From Acetobacteraceae bacterium (GTDB lineage Bacteria; Pseudomonadota; Alphaproteobacteria; Acetobacterales; Acetobacteraceae): 45,330 nt of DNA. Made by a program: the position numbers and the translations under genes. The stretch spans positions 1 to 45,330 of the forward strand of contig JANXMB010000164.1 in assembly GCA_025354865.1 (NCBI GenBank), in the 5' to 3' direction. Below, in pieces: positions 6,842-43,494 of this stretch. The stretch's first letter is position 1; every line of letters begins with the position of its first letter. The notes under the pieces are model-generated. The model was not told the DNA's origin, ran no database searches, and worked only from the letters and a program-made list of their open reading frames with translations.

Positions 6842-6960
6842 TTAGAGCGTGATCGCCTGAGGTTGACTTCAACCTCGGGCGTGAATCACCCTCTCAAACA
6901 AAGGCTTAGACCATGATCCAACGCCGAGATCGCGTGCAACCTCAAACGATCATGGTCTAA
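6842..6960. repeat. inverted-repeat element, diverged copy of the TAGAGCG family
   Basis: It begins TTAGAGCGTGATC (6842-6854) and ends GATCATGGTCTAA (6948-6960), the latter also inversely repeated at 6906-6918 (TTAGACCATGATC). An internal hairpin lies at about 6855-6880 (GCCTGAGGTTGA / TCAACCTCGGGC). The start resembles the elements at 28000, 41310 and 42148. Its right end contains the TAG stop codon of the leftward CHRD gene (6957-6959). Confidence 0.7.
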
Positions 6961-7451
6961 TGCTTCATCGGCATCGCATCGTGCTTCATCGGCATCGCGT
7001 CGTGCATCATCGGCATTGCGCTGCCTTCCATCTTCCGGACCACCTGGCCGCGAATTTCGCCGCCCTTGTTGGCCTCGGTATGGACGTTCACATACCACAT
7101 GCCGGATTCCAGATCCTTGATCTGCGCATCGGTCAGGGTCGCGGTCGCGCTCACAACGCCAGCCGGGTCCTTACCGATCGCCACCGCGACACCCGCATTG
7201 GCACCCGCTTTCGCCGGGCCGTGGAAATGCGCGGCCGTCGCCGGACCGGTCAGACCATGGTAGGTCAGGGTATAGCTGAGCACCTTGGTCGCGGTATCCA
7301 AGGTCGCGAGCAGATCACCGGCCCCAGCCGAGGTCGTCGCCGGAACCTCGCTCTTGCCGCCGAGTGCGGCCTCGAAATGCAGCGTGGCGGCGGAGGCGGA
7401 ACCGATCAGACCGAAGGTGGCGACGGTTGCGAACAAAGCGCGACGTATCAT
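6957..7451 (-). CDS. secreted CHRD-domain protein with Met/His-rich tail
   Basis: 164 residues. A Sec signal peptide (MIRRALFATVATFGLIGSASA) gives export to the periplasm or outside. A CHRD domain follows (about 24-138), recognisable by LSYTLTYHGLTGPATAAHFHGPA and GMWYVNVHTEANKGGEIRGQV; CHRD domains occur in chordin and in bacterial surface proteins of unclear function. The last 19 residues are three near-repeats of DAMPMKH, made by 21-bp DNA repeats at 6960-7022; Met/His runs of this kind bind copper or other soft metals in other proteins, so metal binding is a reasonable guess. GGGAGAA precedes the ATG. The TAG stop lies in the repeat element 6842-6960. It stands alone. Confidence 0.85.
   Translation of the reverse strand: MIRRALFATVATFGLIGSASAATLHFEAALGGKSEVPATTSAGAGDLLATLDTATKVLSYTLTYHGLTGPATAAHFHGPAKAGANAGVAVAIGKDPAGVVSATATLTDAQIKDLESGMWYVNVHTEANKGGEIRGQVVRKMEGSAMPMMHDAMPMKHDAMPMKH
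6960..7022 (-). repeat. three 21-bp coding repeats (Met/His tail)
   Basis: Three imperfect 21-bp direct repeats at the 3' end of the CHRD gene encode AMPMMHD, AMPMKHD and AMPMKH. Copies differ at a few bases, so the array is recent or under selection for the same heptapeptide. Confidence 0.8.
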
Positions 7452-11431: not shown

Positions 11432-11950
11432 ATGGCATACGCCTATATCGTTCCGGGTCCCCGCCGCGTGTACGCGCAAGCGACCGGCAACACCTGTTGG
11501 TCCGCTGCTTTCGCAATGGTGAAATCGTGGAACACCGGCGCCGCCTTCTTCAGCCCGCGCGATGCCGTGGTGCCGATGGGCGCCCCTTGGTTGGGCTACT
11601 ACGACACCGACACCCCGATACCGCCGGCCCAAGGCGACGCCTTCGTTGCCGCCACGGGTCTGGTGCGCGAACCCCGCCTCAATCCCAACGTTGCAGGATG
11701 GCATCGGTTGCTGGTGTCGTACGGCTTGCTCTGGGTTTCCAGCGTCGTGCCGGCCGGATTGCACGATCGCGTCCTGGCGGGGATCAACGGCGACGGCACG
11801 CCGGGCGGCACATCGGTCTACATCATGGACCCCGACGGCGGCCGGCAATACGAGCAGAATTACGGCGAATTCTCCGCCCAGTTCGAACGCCAAGCCGGTG
11901 TCGCACCGTTTTACAGCGACTACCAAATCCTGCATTATACCCCAAGCTGA
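11432..11950 (+). CDS. papain-like cysteine peptidase family protein
   Basis: 172 residues. The N-terminal GNTCWSAAFAM segment places a probable nucleophile Cys22 at the start of a helix (with Trp23 as in papain folds), and the GLHDRVLAGINGDGTPGG stretch carries His111, followed by DPDGG with Asp133. This Cys/His/Asp spacing matches the papain-like/C39-like peptidase family found as small stand-alone bacterial proteins, often toxins, effectors or self-processing domains. There is no signal peptide and no neighbouring target. Flanked by an alpha/beta hydrolase and an ECF sigma operon in the same direction with independent gaps. Assignment to the fold is good; activity and substrate are unknown. 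Confidence 0.7.
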   Translation: MAYAYIVPGPRRVYAQATGNTCWSAAFAMVKSWNTGAAFFSPRDAVVPMGAPWLGYYDTDTPIPPAQGDAFVAATGLVREPRLNPNVAGWHRLLVSYGLLWVSSVVPAGLHDRVLAGINGDGTPGGTSVYIMDPDGGRQYEQNYGEFSAQFERQAGVAPFYSDYQILHYTPS

Positions 11951-12015
11951 GCCGCGCGAATCGAACACTCGGATCGCGCTGCACGAACGAAAGCGCACGC
12001 ATCGCGGTTTAAGCG

Positions 12016-24168: not shown

Positions 24169-24786
24169 TTACGCGGCTGTATTGTCGTCGGACGGCGTAG
24201 ACGTGACCGGAGCCGGAACCTTCCGAGGGCGACCCGGTCCCCGCTTGCCCGGCGTTGCCACGACGATCTTCTTCGGTCGGCCCGGTCCGCGCTTCGCCGG
24301 CGCTTTGGCGGCCGACTTCTTCGCAGCTGTTTTTGTGCTGGCGGCTTTCTTCGTTGTTGCAGCCTTGGCGGCAGACTTCCTCGGCCGGCCCGGACCCCGT
24401 TTCGGCGTCGCACTCTTGCTGCCCGAGGCTTTCTTCGGTGCAGCTTTGCGCGTGGCAGCCTTCTTCGGTGCGGCAGCCTTGGCAGCCGATTTCTTCGGCC
24501 GACCCGGCCCGCGCTTGGCGCCAGCGGCTTTCGCCATAGATTTCGTTGCAGATTTTTTCGCAACCGGCTTTTTCGCCGCCGATTTTTTAGCAGTCGGCTT
24601 TTTCGCCGCTGCTTTCTTGGCCGGCGTTTTCTTCGCAGCGGCGGCTTTCGCGGGAGCTTTCTTGCTCGCAGCTTTTTTCCCAGCGGGTTTTTTCCCAGCG
24701 GGCTTTTTCGCCGTTTTACGCGCCCCGGCCTTCATCGCCAGCGCTTGGGCAGACGGCCAATCGATTGTCGTTTCTTCTGTACTCAC
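24169..24786 (-). CDS. AT-hook, histone H1-like DNA-binding protein
   Basis: 205 residues, almost wholly Lys/Ala/Pro after an acidic 18-residue start. Residues 20-90 are histone H1-like KKPAGKK/AKK repeats. Four AT-hooks follow, each KRGPGRP[KR]K, with GRP cores near 95, 133, 169 and 185; AT-hooks insert Arg into the minor groove of AT-rich DNA. The tail is neutral to acidic (TSTPSDDNTAA). The GTG start at 24786 has GAGGAG 9 nt upstream. It is probably a nucleoid-associated or architectural protein, useful for marking AT-rich DNA in a GC-rich genome. The gene is single, with a hairpin after it and a nested palindrome 180-215 bp upstream. Reverse-strand frames here are shadows of its biased codons. 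Confidence 0.85.
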   Translation of the reverse strand: MSTEETTIDWPSAQALAMKAGARKTAKKPAGKKPAGKKAASKKAPAKAAAAKKTPAKKAAAKKPTAKKSAAKKPVAKKSATKSMAKAAGAKRGPGRPKKSAAKAAAPKKAATRKAAPKKASGSKSATPKRGPGRPRKSAAKAATTKKAASTKTAAKKSAAKAPAKRGPGRPKKIVVATPGKRGPGRPRKVPAPVTSTPSDDNTAA

Positions 24787-27932: not shown

Positions 27933-28064
27933 ATGATCCATCGTCGCCGCGTTCTGACCGGATTGCTCGCCGCGCCGGCAAAAACCTTGGACGAAATGCT
28001 AGAGCGCGATGACCGAAGGTGGAATCACCGGAGGTCTGAATCGCGCGAACAAACAATAGGTTAG
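27933..28064 (+). pseudogene. truncated Tat-leader ORF cut by a repeat element
   Basis: ATG at 27933 begins [19 protein letters not shown], a convincing twin-arginine leader (RRR followed by hydrophobic residues), but from codon 23 (28000) onward the frame enters the inverted-repeat element and stops at TAG 28062-28064. The GAAGGA in front resembles a ribosome binding site. Probably the 5' remnant of an exported protein gene whose body was lost on element insertion or deletion. The remainder of 27807-28175 shows a small hairpin (27854-27873) and no other gene. Confidence 0.5.
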
Positions 28065-28103
28065 ATCGCGAGACATGAGCGAGAGCGAACGCATCGCGCT
28101 CTA
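28000..28103 (+). repeat. inverted-repeat element with 12-bp perfect ends
   Basis: 104 bp bounded by TAGAGCGCGATG (28000-28011) and CATCGCGCTCTA (28092-28103), exact inverse complements. Its first 50 bp match the element at 41310 and, in reverse, the array at 41949-42148. No coding capacity; size and ends resemble a MITE or REP-type unit. A target-site duplication is not obvious. Confidence 0.8.
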
Positions 28104-28175
28104 ACGATGGCCCGCGCGCAGCAGCCACACCAACCCCGCGCGCATACCAGTCAACCTGTCGGCCGACCTCCGCGT

Positions 28176-38098: not shown

Positions 38099-38202
38099 GG
38101 CGTCTCTCCCGTGTCAACAAACCAAGACGTTACAAGCACACGCTTCGCATGGACATAGCAGCGCGCGACCGGCACCATGCGCCGCACAATGGAGACCCCG
38201 GC

Positions 38203-40239
38203 ATGACGACCAAGCAGGAAGCGCTGCACGCTTTGTTCCACCCGAGAGCGGTGGCGGTGATCGGCGCGTCCGACGACGATACGAAGCATGGCTATATTGT
38301 GCTGACCAATATTCGGAACGCCGGCTTCCGGGGCGGCATCTACGGCATATCGCGCCGCTTGCAGGACGTCGCCGGCATTCCCTGCGTGCCCACCATCGGC
38401 GCGGTGCCCGAACCGGTGGATACCGCGTTCCTTGCGATCCCGGCCGAGGCTGCGGTCCAGGCCGTGCGCGATTGCGCCGCCAAGGGGCTGACATCGGCGA
38501 TCGTGGGATCGGCGGGCTATGCCGAAAGCCTGGATGCCGACGGCGCCGAGCGGCAGCGGGAGCTGCAACGCGTGGCGGCCGAGTGCAACATTCGCATCGT
38601 CGGCCCCAACTGCAACGGTATCTACAACGCCCACCACCCATTGTCGATCGGGTTCAACACCGCGCATGCCAAGCGGCAGCGGGCCGGCGGGATCTCCATC
38701 TTCTCCCACTCCGGCGCGCTGTTCGACGCGATGGCCGGGCGGCTGGCCTCGTTGGGGGCCGGCCTGTCGCTGTTCGCCTCCGCCGGGAACGAGGCCGATT
38801 TGTCCGTCCTCGACTACATGGAATACGGCATTTCCCATGCGCCGACGCGGGTGATCGCACTGCTGATCGACAGCTTGGAAGACGGGCCGCGCTTCCGGCG
38901 GCTGGCGTTGGCGGCGCATGCGGCGGGCAAACACGTCGTGGCGCTGAAGATCGGCGGTTCGGCGGCGGGTGCGGCAGCGGCGGTGGCGCATTCGTCGCGC
39001 ATGGCCGGCGATGGCGCATCCTACCAGGCATTGATGGACGCCAGCGGGGTATCCACGGTCAAAACGCTGGAGGGTCTGATGACCGCCGCCGCCTTGCTGG
39101 AGAAGTACGGCCGGCATCCCGGCAAGCTGGGCGCGCTTTCGACCTCCGGCGCCGGGGCGTCGTTGATCGCCGACCGCTGCGACGCGCTGGGCGTGCCGCT
39201 CGCCACGCTGTCGGCCGACACGCATGCGGCGATCGACGCGCAAAAAATGTTCTCCCGCATCGGCAACCCGCTGGATATGGGCATTTTCGGCGGCATGCGC
39301 CGTGCCGGGGAGGTACCGACGATGCTGATGTCGGACTCCGATGTGGCGGTGGCAATCGGTCTGATGCACTCGATGAACCCGTGGCAGGGCGACCCGATTC
39401 GCGACGCCTTGGCCAAAGGGCGGGAGACCACGGGCAAGCCGCTGCTGATCGTGTCCCCCGGCGGCATGCCGGACGAGGAACGGGAATCCTACACATCGCG
39501 CGGGATGGATGTCTTCACCGAGACCGATATTCTGTTGGAAGGCATCGGCGCGATGCTGACGCCCTTCCCCGCCGCCATTCCCGACGACGCCCCGGCGCCG
39601 GCCCCCGCCATGCCGGATCGGCAACTGACCGAACCGGAAAGCCTGAACCTGCTGCTGGGCTTCGGCGTCCGCGCCGTGCCGACCGTGGAATGCCCGTCGC
39701 TGGCGCACGCTTTGTCGGCGGCGCGCGCGGTCGGCTATCCCGTCGTGCTCAAAGGCGTGGTCGAAGGCGTGGCGCACAAAAGCGACCAGGGGCTGGTGCA
39801 TGTGAATCTGACCGATTCCGAAGCGTTGGAAGCGGCGTATGCGTCCCTCGGCTGTGCCAATGTCATCGTGCAGAAGATGATCAAGGGGGAACTGGAAGCC
39901 ATTGCCGGCGTCACCCGGGCGGAGGGCGTCGGTCTGGTGCTGCTGGTCGGGCTAGGCGGCATCTACGCCGAAGCCCTCGGCGACGCCACCATCTGGCCGA
40001 TCCCCGTTGCTCGGCAAGCCGTGGAGGCGAAGCTGGCCGACAGCCGCCTGGGCCGCGTGCTGGCAAGCCACCGCTGGCGCCACGACGGCGCCGCCGCCGC
40101 GCTGGTCGATCTGCTGATGTCCCTGCAACGCGCCGCCCTGGCCATGGGCGACCGCTTGCATGCGATCGACATCAACCCGGTGATCCTGGGTGCCGCCGGC
40201 GCCGTGGCCGTGGATGCGTTGGTGATTCCGCGCGCATGA
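38203..40239 (+). CDS. NDP-forming acyl-CoA synthetase (acetate-CoA ligase family)
   Basis: 678 residues, fused alpha and beta parts: CoA-binding domain (HPRAVAVIGASDDDTKHG), succinyl-CoA-synthetase-like ligase domain (IVGPNCNGIYN, ISIFSHSGALFDAMA), and the C-terminal ATP-grasp domain (GYPVVLKGVVEGVAHKSDQGLV, VIVQKMIKGELEAIAGV, HAIDINPVIL). It converts an acid, CoA and ATP or GTP into acyl-CoA and NDP, reversibly. ATG at 38203 has GGAG 8 nt upstream. Its TGA overlaps the ATG of the RuBisCO-like gene (ATGA). The acyl group is unknown. Confidence 0.9.
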   Translation: MTTKQEALHALFHPRAVAVIGASDDDTKHGYIVLTNIRNAGFRGGIYGISRRLQDVAGIPCVPTIGAVPEPVDTAFLAIPAEAAVQAVRDCAAKGLTSAIVGSAGYAESLDADGAERQRELQRVAAECNIRIVGPNCNGIYNAHHPLSIGFNTAHAKRQRAGGISIFSHSGALFDAMAGRLASLGAGLSLFASAGNEADLSVLDYMEYGISHAPTRVIALLIDSLEDGPRFRRLALAAHAAGKHVVALKIGGSAAGAAAAVAHSSRMAGDGASYQALMDASGVSTVKTLEGLMTAAALLEKYGRHPGKLGALSTSGAGASLIADRCDALGVPLATLSADTHAAIDAQKMFSRIGNPLDMGIFGGMRRAGEVPTMLMSDSDVAVAIGLMHSMNPWQGDPIRDALAKGRETTGKPLLIVSPGGMPDEERESYTSRGMDVFTETDILLEGIGAMLTPFPAAIPDDAPAPAPAMPDRQLTEPESLNLLLGFGVRAVPTVECPSLAHALSAARAVGYPVVLKGVVEGVAHKSDQGLVHVNLTDSEALEAAYASLGCANVIVQKMIKGELEAIAGVTRAEGVGLVLLVGLGGIYAEALGDATIWPIPVARQAVEAKLADSRLGRVLASHRWRHDGAAAALVDLLMSLQRAALAMGDRLHAIDINPVILGAAGAVAVDALVIPRA

Positions 40240-41312
40240 ACGGACGGTTCCACGCCGTCTACCGCGTGCGCAGCGATGCGGCGGATATCCAGGCACGCGC
40301 CCAAGGCATCGCGGTGGAGCAGAGCGTCGAAATGCCGCTGGCGGCGATCGACGATCCCGCCGTACTGTCCGACATCGTCGGCACCGTCGTGTCGATCCAA
40401 CAGGTGGACGACCGCCTGTTCGACGTGCGCATCGCCCTGGCCTCCGACACCGTCGGCGACGACGCCGGGCAGTGCATGAATATGCTGTTCGGCAACACGT
40501 CGTTGCAGGACGATACAATTCTGCTCGATGCCGACGTACCGGCCACCTTCGGCGGGGTGCGCCAGGGTCTGGCCGCCCTGCGATCCCGCCTCGGCGTCGC
40601 CGCCCGCGCCTTTGCCGGTTCGGCTTTGAAACCGCAGGGCATGCCGGTGGCGCGACTGGCAGCGCTGGCCGAGCGCTTTGCGATGGGCGGGTTGGATTTT
40701 ATCAAGGACGATCACGGTCTGGCCGATCAGCGCTACAGCCCCTTCGCCGAACGAGTCCCCGCCATCGCCGAGGCCGTTGCGCGTGCCACCCGCAGCACCG
40801 GCCATCCGACCCGATATATCCCCAGCCTGTCGGGCGATCTGGACGCGATGCGGGCGCAACTGCGCCTCGCGCAGGCATGCGGGCTGGACTGTGCCATGCT
40901 CGCACCGGCCATCGCCGGCTTCGCCACCCTGCGGACGCTGGCGGATGCATTCCCCGACTTCGTGCTGTTCGCCCATCCCGCTTTGGGCGGAGCCGCTCGG
41001 ATCGCGCCGGACCTGCTGATCGGGAAATTGTTCCCCGCCTTCGGCGCCGGCGGCGCGATCTTCCCCACCTACGGCGGGCGGTTCGGCTATTCGCAGGATA
41101 CCTGCCAGCGGCTGGCCGGGAACGCCCGCGCGAACGACAGCCTTCCCATTCCGGCGGGTGGGATGACGTTGGCGCGCACGGCGGAAATCCTCGATTTCTA
41201 CGGCGCGGATACGATGCTGCTGATCGGCGGCAATCTGCTCATGGCCCGCGAACGCATCCCCGAGGAGTCCGCCCGCTTCGCCCGCGCGGTGGCGGACCAT
41301 CCCTACCGATAG
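40236..41312 (+). CDS. RuBisCO-like protein (form IV)
   Basis: 358 residues, shorter than true RuBisCO (about 420-480). Alignment by eye: ALKPQG gives Lys132 for Lys175 but Gln134 for Lys177; FIKDDH gives Lys157 for the carbamylated Lys201 and Asp159 for Asp203, yet His160 for Glu204; LFAHPA gives His247 near His294; IGKLF gives Lys264 for loop-6 Lys334; IPAGG has Ala for Ser379. Carboxylation of ribulose bisphosphate is therefore unlikely; RuBisCO-like relatives act as enolases, isomerases or transcarboxylases on phosphorylated 2-oxo or 3-oxo acids. It is coupled to the acyl-CoA synthetase by a 4-bp overlap. The TAG stop is the first codon-sized piece of a repeat element. Confidence 0.88.
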   Translation: MNGRFHAVYRVRSDAADIQARAQGIAVEQSVEMPLAAIDDPAVLSDIVGTVVSIQQVDDRLFDVRIALASDTVGDDAGQCMNMLFGNTSLQDDTILLDADVPATFGGVRQGLAALRSRLGVAARAFAGSALKPQGMPVARLAALAERFAMGGLDFIKDDHGLADQRYSPFAERVPAIAEAVARATRSTGHPTRYIPSLSGDLDAMRAQLRLAQACGLDCAMLAPAIAGFATLRTLADAFPDFVLFAHPALGGAARIAPDLLIGKLFPAFGAGGAIFPTYGGRFGYSQDTCQRLAGNARANDSLPIPAGGMTLARTAEILDFYGADTMLLIGGNLLMARERIPEESARFARAVADHPYR

Positions 41313-41362
41313 AGCGCGATGACCGCAGGTGGAATCACCGGAGGTCTGAATCGCGCGATCTA
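41310..41362 (+). repeat. TAGAGCG element at the end of the RuBisCO-like gene
   Basis: 53 bp beginning TAGAGCGCGATG, identical over about 48 of 50 bases with 28000-28050, and ending GCGCGATCTA. The first three bases are the gene's stop codon. Confidence 0.8.
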
Positions 41363-41461
41363 ACGGGAGCAGACGCGCAGGAATGGCGGTTTTTAACCGG
41401 GGCGAAATCGGGTAGACGGCGACTTGCGTGCGCGTTTTCCCATCGCGATAGGGCAGAATCT

Positions 41462-41923
41462 ATGGACACCGAACAACCCCCCTCCCTGTTTCGGCCGACC
41501 GACGGCGGGTACCGGTGGCAGGGCGTCGCGTACCAACCCTACAAGCAGGACGGCAGCGCGCCGTTCAAGGACATCTCCCGCCAGACGCTATTCCACGATC
41601 CGTCGCTGGGCTGCGAGTTGCGGTATTTCGAGATGGATGCCGCCGGCTACTCGACCCTCGAACGGCACGAGCACACCCATGCCGTCATGATCTTCCGCGG
41701 CGAGGGCCAATGTCTGCTCGGCACCGAAGTCCGCCCGGTGCGCACCCACGACCTGATCACGATTCCGGCTTGGACGTGGCACCAATTCCGAGCATCGGGG
41801 GGGGCGCCGATGGGGTTCCTGTGCATGGTGAATACCGCCCGCGACCGGCCGGTGCTGCCGACCGAGGCCGAGGCCGCCGCGATGCGCGCGGTGCCCGCCG
41901 TGGCGCGCTTCTTCGGGGAATAG
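41462..41923 (+). CDS. cupin-domain protein
   Basis: 153 residues. A single cupin barrel: motif 1 is RHEHTHAVMIFRGEG, with His-x-His-x-His but no Glu at the usual fourth position, and motif 2 is LITIPAWTWHQFRA. Three or four histidines can still bind a divalent metal. These small cupins isomerise, oxidise or sense sugars and aromatic compounds. ATG at 41462, 99 nt after the repeat element; no strong ribosome binding site. Followed by the repeat array. Function not assignable. Confidence 0.82.
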   Translation: MDTEQPPSLFRPTDGGYRWQGVAYQPYKQDGSAPFKDISRQTLFHDPSLGCELRYFEMDAAGYSTLERHEHTHAVMIFRGEGQCLLGTEVRPVRTHDLITIPAWTWHQFRASGGAPMGFLCMVNTARDRPVLPTEAEAAAMRAVPAVARFFGE

Positions 41924-41948: not shown

Positions 41949-42148
41949 CGGCCTACCGCCTCCGCTCATCGCGGCTCGTTGTTTGTTCGCGCGATTCAGA
42001 CCTCCGGCCTACCGCCTCCGGTCATCGCGGCTCGTTGTTTGTTCGCGCGATTCAGACCTCCGGCGATTCCGCCTGCGGTCATCGCGGCTCGTTGTTTGTT
42101 CGCGCGATTCAGACCTCCGGCGATTCCGCCTGCGGTCATCGCGCTCTA
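41949..42148 (-). repeat. tandem array of TAGAGCG elements
   Basis: Three full units of 56-57 bp and a partial one, each with TTTGTTCGCGCGATTCAGAC-type sequence, in the opposite orientation to the copies at 28000 and 41310. The last unit ends CATCGCGCTCTA (42137-42148), the element's terminal inverted repeat, which holds the TGA stop and last codons (Arg-Ala-Arg) of the MATE gene. No spacers of CRISPR type: units are directly adjacent and nearly identical. Confidence 0.85.
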
Positions 42149-43494
42149 AACCAAACCCCGGCGCGGATCGCCGTGACTAGCAGGCTGCCGTAGACAACCA
42201 GCGCAGCCGCCAGCGCGTAGAACGCGGCCTGCAACGAACCGACGAAGTGGAACGCCAGCCAGCCGCCGCCCACCGCCACGAGCATCCGCAGCAGGCCCGC
42301 ACCCAGCGGCCACAGCAACCGCCCCGCCCCCTGGGAGGCGAAATACAGCGACAACCCCAGCCCGAAGAACCCGAAAACCGGCCCCACCGCGCGCAAATAC
42401 GCCACGCCGGTCGCCATCATCGCCGGGTCGTGGCCGAACAGGCCGATCCAGGCCTCGGGGAAAATCGCAGCAGTCAGGCCCACCGTTTCCGTCAAGGCGA
42501 ACGCCAGCGCGCCGCCGGTCAAAGCGATGCGCAGCGCGCGATCCCGCTGGCCGGCCCCGATATTGGTCCCAACCAGCGCCACCAGCGGCGCCCCGAGGCC
42601 GAACACCAACGGCACCAGCAGATATTCGAGGCGGGAGCCGGTGCCGAACCCAGCCACCGCATCCGGCCCGGCGACCGAACCGACCAACGCCGTGGTCAGC
42701 CCGATGGTCGCGGAGGTCTGCAAAGTGCTGACGGATGCCACCGCCCCCACCTTCAAGATATCAGCGAACAAGGGCCAGCGCAGCCGCTCGGCACGAGGCC
42801 GCACCAAGGCCCGTCCCGCCAGCAAATAGGCCGCCAATACCAGCATAACCAACAGGTTGGTGCCCACCACCGCAATACCGCCGCCGGCGATACCGAAGCC
42901 GGGGATCGGCCCGTAGCCGAAAATCAGCAACGGCGACAACGGGATCAGCAACACCACGCCTAGGCAGACCGCCATGGCCGGGACCAGCATGTTCCCCGTG
43001 CCGCGGATCGCGCTGGCCAGGGCGTTCATCAGCCACACCGCGATATTCCCGCCGAACACGATGTTGGAATAGGCCAGCGCAGCCTCCAACGAGCCGCCGC
43101 GCCCGCCCATGGCGCCGTAGATCGCTCGCCCGAACACCAGGAACAGCACCGCAAACCCAATCCCCAGCAGCGCATTGACGATCAGCGCATGCACCACCAG
43201 CGCATCCGCATCGTCCTTCCGCCGCCCGCCCAACGCTCGGGCAACGGCCGAGGAAATCCCGCCGCCCACGGCCCCGGCGGAGAGCATTTGCATCATCATG
43301 AAGCCCGGAAACACCAGCGCCATACCCGCCAACGCATCGACCCCGAGGCGGGAGACGAACCACGTCTCGATCAGTCCGGTGGAGGCCTGCGCCAGCATCA
43401 CCAGGATGTTGGGCCATGCCATGCTGAGCAGCGTCGGCACGATCGCCCCCTGCAACAGCCGCACGGTGCGCGGATTCATCGTTGTCGTGCTCAT
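42136..43494 (-). CDS. MATE family efflux transporter
   Basis: 452 residues with about twelve transmembrane segments in two halves (MAWPNILVMLAQASTGLIETWFVS, GGGISSAVARALGG, then SVSTLQTSATIGLTTALVG and GTNIGAGQRDRALR), the layout of MATE exporters that use Na+ or H+ gradients to expel cationic drugs or metabolites. Inner membrane. ATG at 43494 overlaps the HxlR stop (ATGA), so it is co-expressed with that regulator. Its final codons and TGA lie in the repeat array, giving the C-terminus WFRAR. Confidence 0.9.
   Translation of the reverse strand: MSTTTMNPRTVRLLQGAIVPTLLSMAWPNILVMLAQASTGLIETWFVSRLGVDALAGMALVFPGFMMMQMLSAGAVGGGISSAVARALGGRRKDDADALVVHALIVNALLGIGFAVLFLVFGRAIYGAMGGRGGSLEAALAYSNIVFGGNIAVWLMNALASAIRGTGNMLVPAMAVCLGVVLLIPLSPLLIFGYGPIPGFGIAGGGIAVVGTNLLVMLVLAAYLLAGRALVRPRAERLRWPLFADILKVGAVASVSTLQTSATIGLTTALVGSVAGPDAVAGFGTGSRLEYLLVPLVFGLGAPLVALVGTNIGAGQRDRALRIALTGGALAFALTETVGLTAAIFPEAWIGLFGHDPAMMATGVAYLRAVGPVFGFFGLGLSLYFASQGAGRLLWPLGAGLLRMLVAVGGGWLAFHFVGSLQAAFYALAAALVVYGSLLVTAIRAGVWFRAR

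Follow-up and report, generated by a model that had tools for sequence, protein, structure and literature searches.

The window, by which we mean the whole 45,330-nucleotide stretch of contig JANXMB010000164.1 from an Acetobacteraceae bacterium that was analysed here, carries several copies of a short repeat, some of which coincide with the 3' ends of genes. By direct reading, the 12-bp repeat end TAGAGCGCGATG lies at 28000 (+), 28103 (-), 41310 (+) and 42148 (-). The copy at 41310..41362 (+) is a single-arm hairpin of 53 bp, and its first three bases, TAG, are the stop codon (41310-41312) of a RuBisCO-like protein gene (40236..41312, +; PF00016). This gene stands in a row with a 697-codon gene and a cupin gene (PF07883) at 38149-41923, and homologues of it are present in many Acetobacteraceae records. 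On the opposite strand, a tandem array of arm A with its left end at 42148 (41956..42148, -) ends a MATE family transporter gene (42136..43479, -; PF01554); tandem-repeat analysis gives about 3.3 copies of a 57-bp unit at 41956-42143. The MATE stop, TGA at 42138-42136, corresponds to element positions 11-13, that is, to another frame and another stop than in the RuBisCO-like case, and the protein ends in ...WFRAR* in the host versus ...WFRRR* (TAG) in two congeners. A copy of a second family, TAGAGCGTGATC...GATCATGGTCTA, also built on a two-arm plan, occupies 6843..6959 (+), and its right end forms the stop TAG (6959-6957) of a CHRD domain gene (6957..7451, -; PF07452). All three stop codons thus lie at element ends, where the original prediction had placed them. 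Two further tandem repeats were seen: a 21-bp repeat at the 3' end of the CHRD gene (6961-7016), which codes for a repeated M/H/K-rich tail that differs in relatives, and a cluster of 15- and 30-bp repeats at 24551-24708.

A full two-armed copy, 104 bp at 28000..28103 (+), lies within the remnant of a solute-binding-protein-like gene, whose Tat-leader part is at 27933..27999 (+); this accounts for the cut Tat-leader reading frame of the original prediction. In this remnant the leader is joined to an internal piece (KTLDEM), and about 160 residues are missing compared to the 438-aa reading in G008. Directly behind the copy, at 28113-28168, lies a dispersed repeat found at 17 places in congener G028 and at 3 each in G008 and G015. 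The profile census described below added a partial copy with a right end only at 11947..12011 (+).

According to that census, the consensus element measures 104 bp and consists of arm A, a linker and arm B. The full copy at 28000-28103 has TA at both ends and perfect terminal inverted repeats of 12 bp, TAGAGCGCGATG and CATCGCGCTCTA. Terminal inverted repeats and many dispersed copies that differ between species are traits of miniature inverted-repeat transposable elements (MITEs); no coding capacity is known, as judged from the 104-bp length alone. Arm A also occurs in tandem arrays, with 154 units across 121 loci. Read from the consensus, the left end gives TAG in one frame and TGA after 10 bases in the second; the third frame runs without a stop for some 60 bases. 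Hairpins are strong (z of -4.5 for the 104-mer and -3.6 for the 53-mer). The whole 104-mer folds with end-to-end pairing, and separate folds were seen for arm A and for the 53-mer. Among 51 distinct units of arm A, 650 of 663 cells were paired, compared to a mean of 639 and a maximum of 644 in 300 column shuffles, and inner-stem replacements of T-A by C-G amount to some compensating change. The kept pairing would fit a hairpin under selection, whether for its part in transposition or for one in RNA. The terminal loop of arm A contains GANTC in 83/114 units, and a second GANTC is present in 108/114. GANTC density is 18.6 per kb in the elements and 2.0 in the sample; the elements make up 1.8% of the sampled DNA and hold 16.7% of its GANTC.

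Within the window alone the recurrence of the end is not unusual: the 12-mer with up to 2 mismatches gave 9 matches, shuffled sequences gave a mean of 5.4, and 11 of 100 shuffles reached 9. Throughout the 4.76-Mb, 190-contig genome, by comparison, the exact 14-mer TAGAGCGCGATGAC occurs in 68 copies (41 forward, 27 reverse) and its reversed control in none, and we conclude from this that the repeat recurs beyond chance. Arm A, with up to 3 mismatches allowed, was found 138 times. The 15-mer TAGAGCGCGATGACC is present in 67 copies in the host, in one copy in 3 of 32 congeners and in none of the other 29; the repeat thus forms a family with a species-specific burst, and exact copies are species-specific. 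Rfam gave no match at the gathering score within the window, and a DNA search of the plasmid collection with both repeat families was likewise without a match.

The placement of repeats at stop codons holds genome-wide. Genes were called with a purpose-written codon-usage script (505 genes in 520 kb, 89% coding). For the 68 exact left ends, TAG is the in-frame stop of a called gene in 23, and the nearest stop lies in the preceding 60 bp in 9. When 78 loci totalling 692 kb, selected as carriers of copies, were searched with a profile, 121 element loci emerged, some second-family copies included; places on contigs 2 (33906), 43, 45 (18005), 64 and 188 and copies beyond those listed lie outside this census. 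A stop was found at the left end in 35/115 cases, at the right end in 13/70 and at either end in 47/121 loci; the original prediction was right in that this is one repeat family located at 3' ends. The profile figures also dispose of a strong orientation bias of stop fusion: an initial 23 left versus 3 right ends reflected poor detection of right ends. At one locus (L063 1494) both ends are at stops, each end being the stop of one of two convergent genes. In addition, four left ends, that of the MATE gene included, fall into an out-of-frame class in which the stop is provided by TGA at element position 11. Elements at L027, L015, L013 and L049 have beside them, or joined to them, another dispersed repeat family, one marked by TAGTGGTC ends.

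The second family, TAGAGCGTGATCGCC, behaves similarly and is present in 291 copies in congener G028. Once duplicates had been removed, along with any end lying within 120 bases from where a locus starts, 7/28 A ends and 1/24 B ends in 30 G028 loci, as well as 9/25 ends in host loci, were at stop codons. In other fetched relatives, 7/23 ends of the general form were at stops. The stop of the same gene may be taken by different families in different species, as seen for the L059 and L105 genes (L171 and L247 in G028) and for rpoH (L121 in G022). A class-wide scan for the second-family end TAGAGCRTGATC gave a match in 137 of 289 genomes; none of this sample had a comparable burst, the highest count elsewhere being 13 compared to 51 in the host.

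A stop codon at an element end may have been created by the element, which would then have truncated or replaced the end of the gene, or it may be older than the insertion. Of 33 in-frame stop-fused sites listed, 4 had no usable relative (at least 60% identity, ending within 15 residues), leaving 29. At 23 of these 29, at least one relative has its stop at the same codon. Six sites are exceptions, namely L052, L053, L063, L101, rpoH (L060) and the RuBisCO-like gene. Across the stop-fused sites, relatives' stops comprise 30 TAA, 27 TAG and 29 TGA. The share of TAA and TAG is accordingly 57/86, compared to 240/568 for gene stops away from elements; the p value of 4e-5 is only a guide, as the relatives are not independent.

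To look for empty sites, the two flanks of each of 43 elements with TA at both ends were connected through one TA, and the result was aligned to congener loci. Five align across the junction (L016 (grxD), L024+, L026, L043 and L105), and all five are at stops, the congener loci having been fetched for stop sites. At four of them (L016, L024+, L026 and L043), a single TA stands in the stop codon of at least one congener, and TA is duplicated around the element in the host. For grxD, G028 and G015 read gct TAACGTTTCGTTAACC, while the host reads gca TA-element-TA ACCTTTTCTTAACC. At L024+, one of three relatives has TA and the others TGA; at L105, all three relatives have TGA, with TG where TA is expected, and a TA at this site would have to be assumed. 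In the window, the RuBisCO-like gene reads CGA-TAA without the element and one TA; its three relatives have TGA as their stop, displaced by -1 to +3 codons. The CHRD gene treated in the same manner reads CAT-TAA; five relatives were listed, of which four have TAA and the fifth, alone in aligning to this very codon, has TGA. None of these relatives passes the limits given above, and the CHRD site is not among the 29. The 28000 copy, when emptied, gives KTLDEMLTMARA compared to KTLDEMMTMAKA in G008, where TG stands instead of the expected TA.

Since congener stops lie at the same codon in 23/29 cases and a single TA is found at four aligned sites, the in-frame stops were not created by the element. 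It apparently rebuilds an existing stop by replacing its third base only, and the stop would be older than the insertion, except in the out-of-frame class. Hence, the idea that the element supplies stop codons holds for that class, the MATE gene included, and fails for the in-frame class, where at 23 of 29 sites the same stops exist in relatives lacking the element. Creation of new stops is true for the four out-of-frame left ends and may extend to rpoH and the L053 gene, which are 1-3 and 2-3 residues shorter, respectively, than in the nearest relatives; as a general rule it is refuted by the 23 shared stop positions, and we rate it as very improbable.

Where else the elements are found indicates what they recognize and what is tolerated. 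Copies away from stops are at Y-TA-R, with C/T on the left flank in 71/80 and A/G on the right flank in 49/53. Only four of the 121 element loci are inside genes, although the coding sequence of the sample offers 331 free Y-TA-R sites, next to 77 free sites at stops and 204 in intergenic regions. If single-flank matches of the intergenic classes are taken as Y-TA-R too, the occupied share of these sites follows a selection gradient, from 6/69 in divergent gaps and 28/139 in co-directional gaps to 11/41 in convergent gaps and 32/109 at stop codons. These counts, together with the scarcity of loci inside genes, agree with the proposal that insertions persist where they do least harm.

The same numbers bear on the possibility that stop codons are an active target of the transposition machinery, chosen via translation termination, for instance, or via a longer target motif. 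Occupancy of Y-TA-R at stops (32/109) exceeds that of pooled intergenic sites with both flanks known (29/233; p=0.0002); we take this excess to reflect selection acting against gaps that hold promoters or lie within operons. Occupancy at R-TA-R stops is likewise above that at half-matching intergenic sites (15/176 versus 7/651; p=2e-6), and the sole IS630 end seen in the host (see below) is also at a stop. When stops are compared to convergent gaps, which are intergenic and lack promoters, the Y-TA-R excess disappears (p=0.84), and the R-TA-R excess becomes weak (p=0.10); the latter could be explained by a change of the wobble base after insertion. Moreover, the preference for a pyrimidine before TA is seen at stops as elsewhere, though weaker, with 20/35 left-fused stops compared to 77/238 free stops and to 71/80 at non-stop copies. 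Stops are used like other harmless places, as a result of least harm and target chemistry, and no active targeting is needed. As stop occupancy is about that of convergent gaps, we reject active targeting and hold it to be quite unlikely.

The original prediction had alternatively proposed a role as terminator or mRNA end. Elements selected exactly at stop codons as functional 3'-end signals, be it terminators or RNA-protecting hairpins, would be consistent with the strong hairpins and the kept arm A pairing, although pairing may equally serve transposition. The right end is kept in 14/35 left-stop copies versus 53/80 others (p=0.013), a pattern that would result if the near end alone were retained, and the window array contains one terminator-like site at 42073-42087 (+). 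A T tract is a different matter: TTTT is found near the end in only 1 of 35 left-stop-fused copies. There is no terminator-like site at the RuBisCO copy, and the hairpin-T terminator of grxD, common to its relatives, is kept downstream of the element. Furthermore, congeners do without the element, and both ends and both families occupy stops. For the T tract, grxD and RuBisCO results, a terminator role is rejected as the general explanation, and selection as a 3'-end signal appears unlikely. At the individual site 42073-42087 (+), a role for the upstream cupin gene may nevertheless be considered.

The numerous copies at gene ends, palindromic, mosaic and tandem in form, would also suit REP/BIME elements whose transposase is a RAYT (Y1). 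A search for the corresponding domain, PF01797, gave no match in the host genome, while 5/14 control genomes were positive. For REPs, one would not expect a duplicated TA or ends of IS630 type, both of which were observed here. A RAYT/REP origin was thus rejected and is extremely improbable.

What, then, moves the repeats? PF13358 is found at two loci of the host genome. One of them (C95, L262) is a fragment of an IS630-type transposase cut by the contig end; it scores 77 bits against NCBIfam NF033545, below the 100-bit cut-off for the whole protein. Behind its stop, the sequence ...AATCATGCTCTA leads to the element end TAGAGCATGATT, and the TAG of this end (L262 1383) is the stop of a neighbouring gene on the other strand. 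The second locus (L261) has a different candidate end, TAATACC. The fragment protein matches 868 plasmid records. Among the 25 matches listed of these 868, we examined eight relatives with 62-65% identity, from Chelativorans, Methylobacterium, Sinorhizobium, Methylocystis, Polymorphobacter, Rhizobium, Sphingobium and Novosphingobium, using a script that required TA at the ends. All eight have a 3' end of the form TAGAG[CT], and seven have a matching inverted 5' end at a distance of about 1.05 kb. Among the repeats, the ends TAGAGCGCGAT, TAGAGCGTGAT, TAGACCATGAT and TAGATCGCGAT share this form, which makes the repeats look like IS630-derived MITEs. The end of the host IS630 copy, which is partial, agrees with the repeat ends over TAGAGC-GAT only. 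Judging by these end motifs, the repeats are most likely moved by a transposase of IS630 type from the alphaproteobacterial group with TAGAG ends; the host copy is a candidate for this mover.

Together, these findings make it highly probable that the repeats are IS630-type MITEs that insert at Y-TA-R, are silent in TAA and TAG stops and are retained there by purifying selection. The elements would be non-autonomous DNA transposons of about 104 bp, with two hairpin arms and a linker, that duplicate TA upon insertion. As the element ends begin with G after TA, insertion into TAA or TAG would give TA+G and thereby TAG at the same codon, leaving the protein unchanged, while on the far side the TA of the element would join the old third base of the stop. 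In a GC-rich, gene-dense genome, TAA and TAG stops would make up a large part of the harmless target sites, and purifying selection would then leave about a third of the copies at stops, where they are presumably neutral. Counting against this explanation are the six of 29 sites without a same-codon stop, the TGA in 29 of 86 relatives' stops, the TG found at the L105 and 28000 sites, the overuse of R-TA-R stops relative to half-matching intergenic sites and the limited agreement of the repeat ends with that of the partial host IS630.

Several known repeats resemble these elements in part. BOX repeats of Streptococcus pneumoniae encode the stop in 36 of 58 overlapping genes, without strong evidence of truncation (PMC3049150); the host elements share the location at stop codons and add empty sites and target duplication, which the section on BOX does not show and which, in the host, reveal how a stop outlasts the insertion. 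CcrM-associated intergenic repeats (CIRs) of Caulobacter are about 110 bp long, with two hairpin arms, a linker and GANTC in the terminal loop of one arm, and the passages on them give an intergenic location, conservation across species and a mobility that is not known (PMC2229807). The host elements are alphaproteobacterial as well, with 104 bp, two arms, a linker and GANTC in 83/114 loops. They differ in that 47/121 loci are at stops and four inside genes, exact copies are species-specific, TA is duplicated and the ends are IS630-like; the end-to-end pairing of the 104-mer is also unlike the CIR fold described there (PMC2229807). We therefore speak of a resemblance by description and claim no membership, as the intergenic location and the conservation across species are not shared. 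RUP, an IS630-type MITE, is similar in its TA target and in that its ends resemble an IS630 found in its own host; in the account of RUP the whole inverted repeats are highly similar to the IS partner, whereas the host repeats agree with a partial partner in the outer TAGAGC-GAT only (PMC2229807). ERIC (RU-1) shares TA ends, TA duplication and copies at gene 3' ends. In its example ECA3499, the insertion removed the normal stop and lengthened the protein, whereas the host elements rebuild the stop (PMC2759123). QMITE2 of Coxiella is mostly located in 3' untranslated regions, and one copy alters a gene end; the descriptions consulted give no systematic rebuilding of stops (PMC5896051, PMC10969869). 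Beyond BOX, a mechanism of stop rebuilding was not found described in the parts covered of the literature on MITEs in stop codons, and a search of the literature on alphaproteobacterial palindromes returned none.

The host repeats add a new example to an already known kind of element. By way of the empty sites, they explain the apparent encoding of stops by small repeats in bacterial annotation: the stop is old, and the repeat rebuilt it. This can be put as a rule, namely that an element which targets TA and begins with G or A will be silent when inserted into a TAA or TAG stop. The distribution of such repeats is a natural measure of the places where insertions are tolerated, and the IS630-like ends provide a lead on the movement of CIR-like alphaproteobacterial repeats. 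More speculatively, and with considerable doubt, TAGAG-ended IS630s of Alphaproteobacteria and the two-armed repeats they move, CIRs perhaps included, might all be silent in stops owing to how their ends are built, and stops would then be a class-wide safe harbour, and bursts might seed GANTC methylation sites at gene ends. If true, this seeding would link a selfish repeat to cell-cycle methylation.
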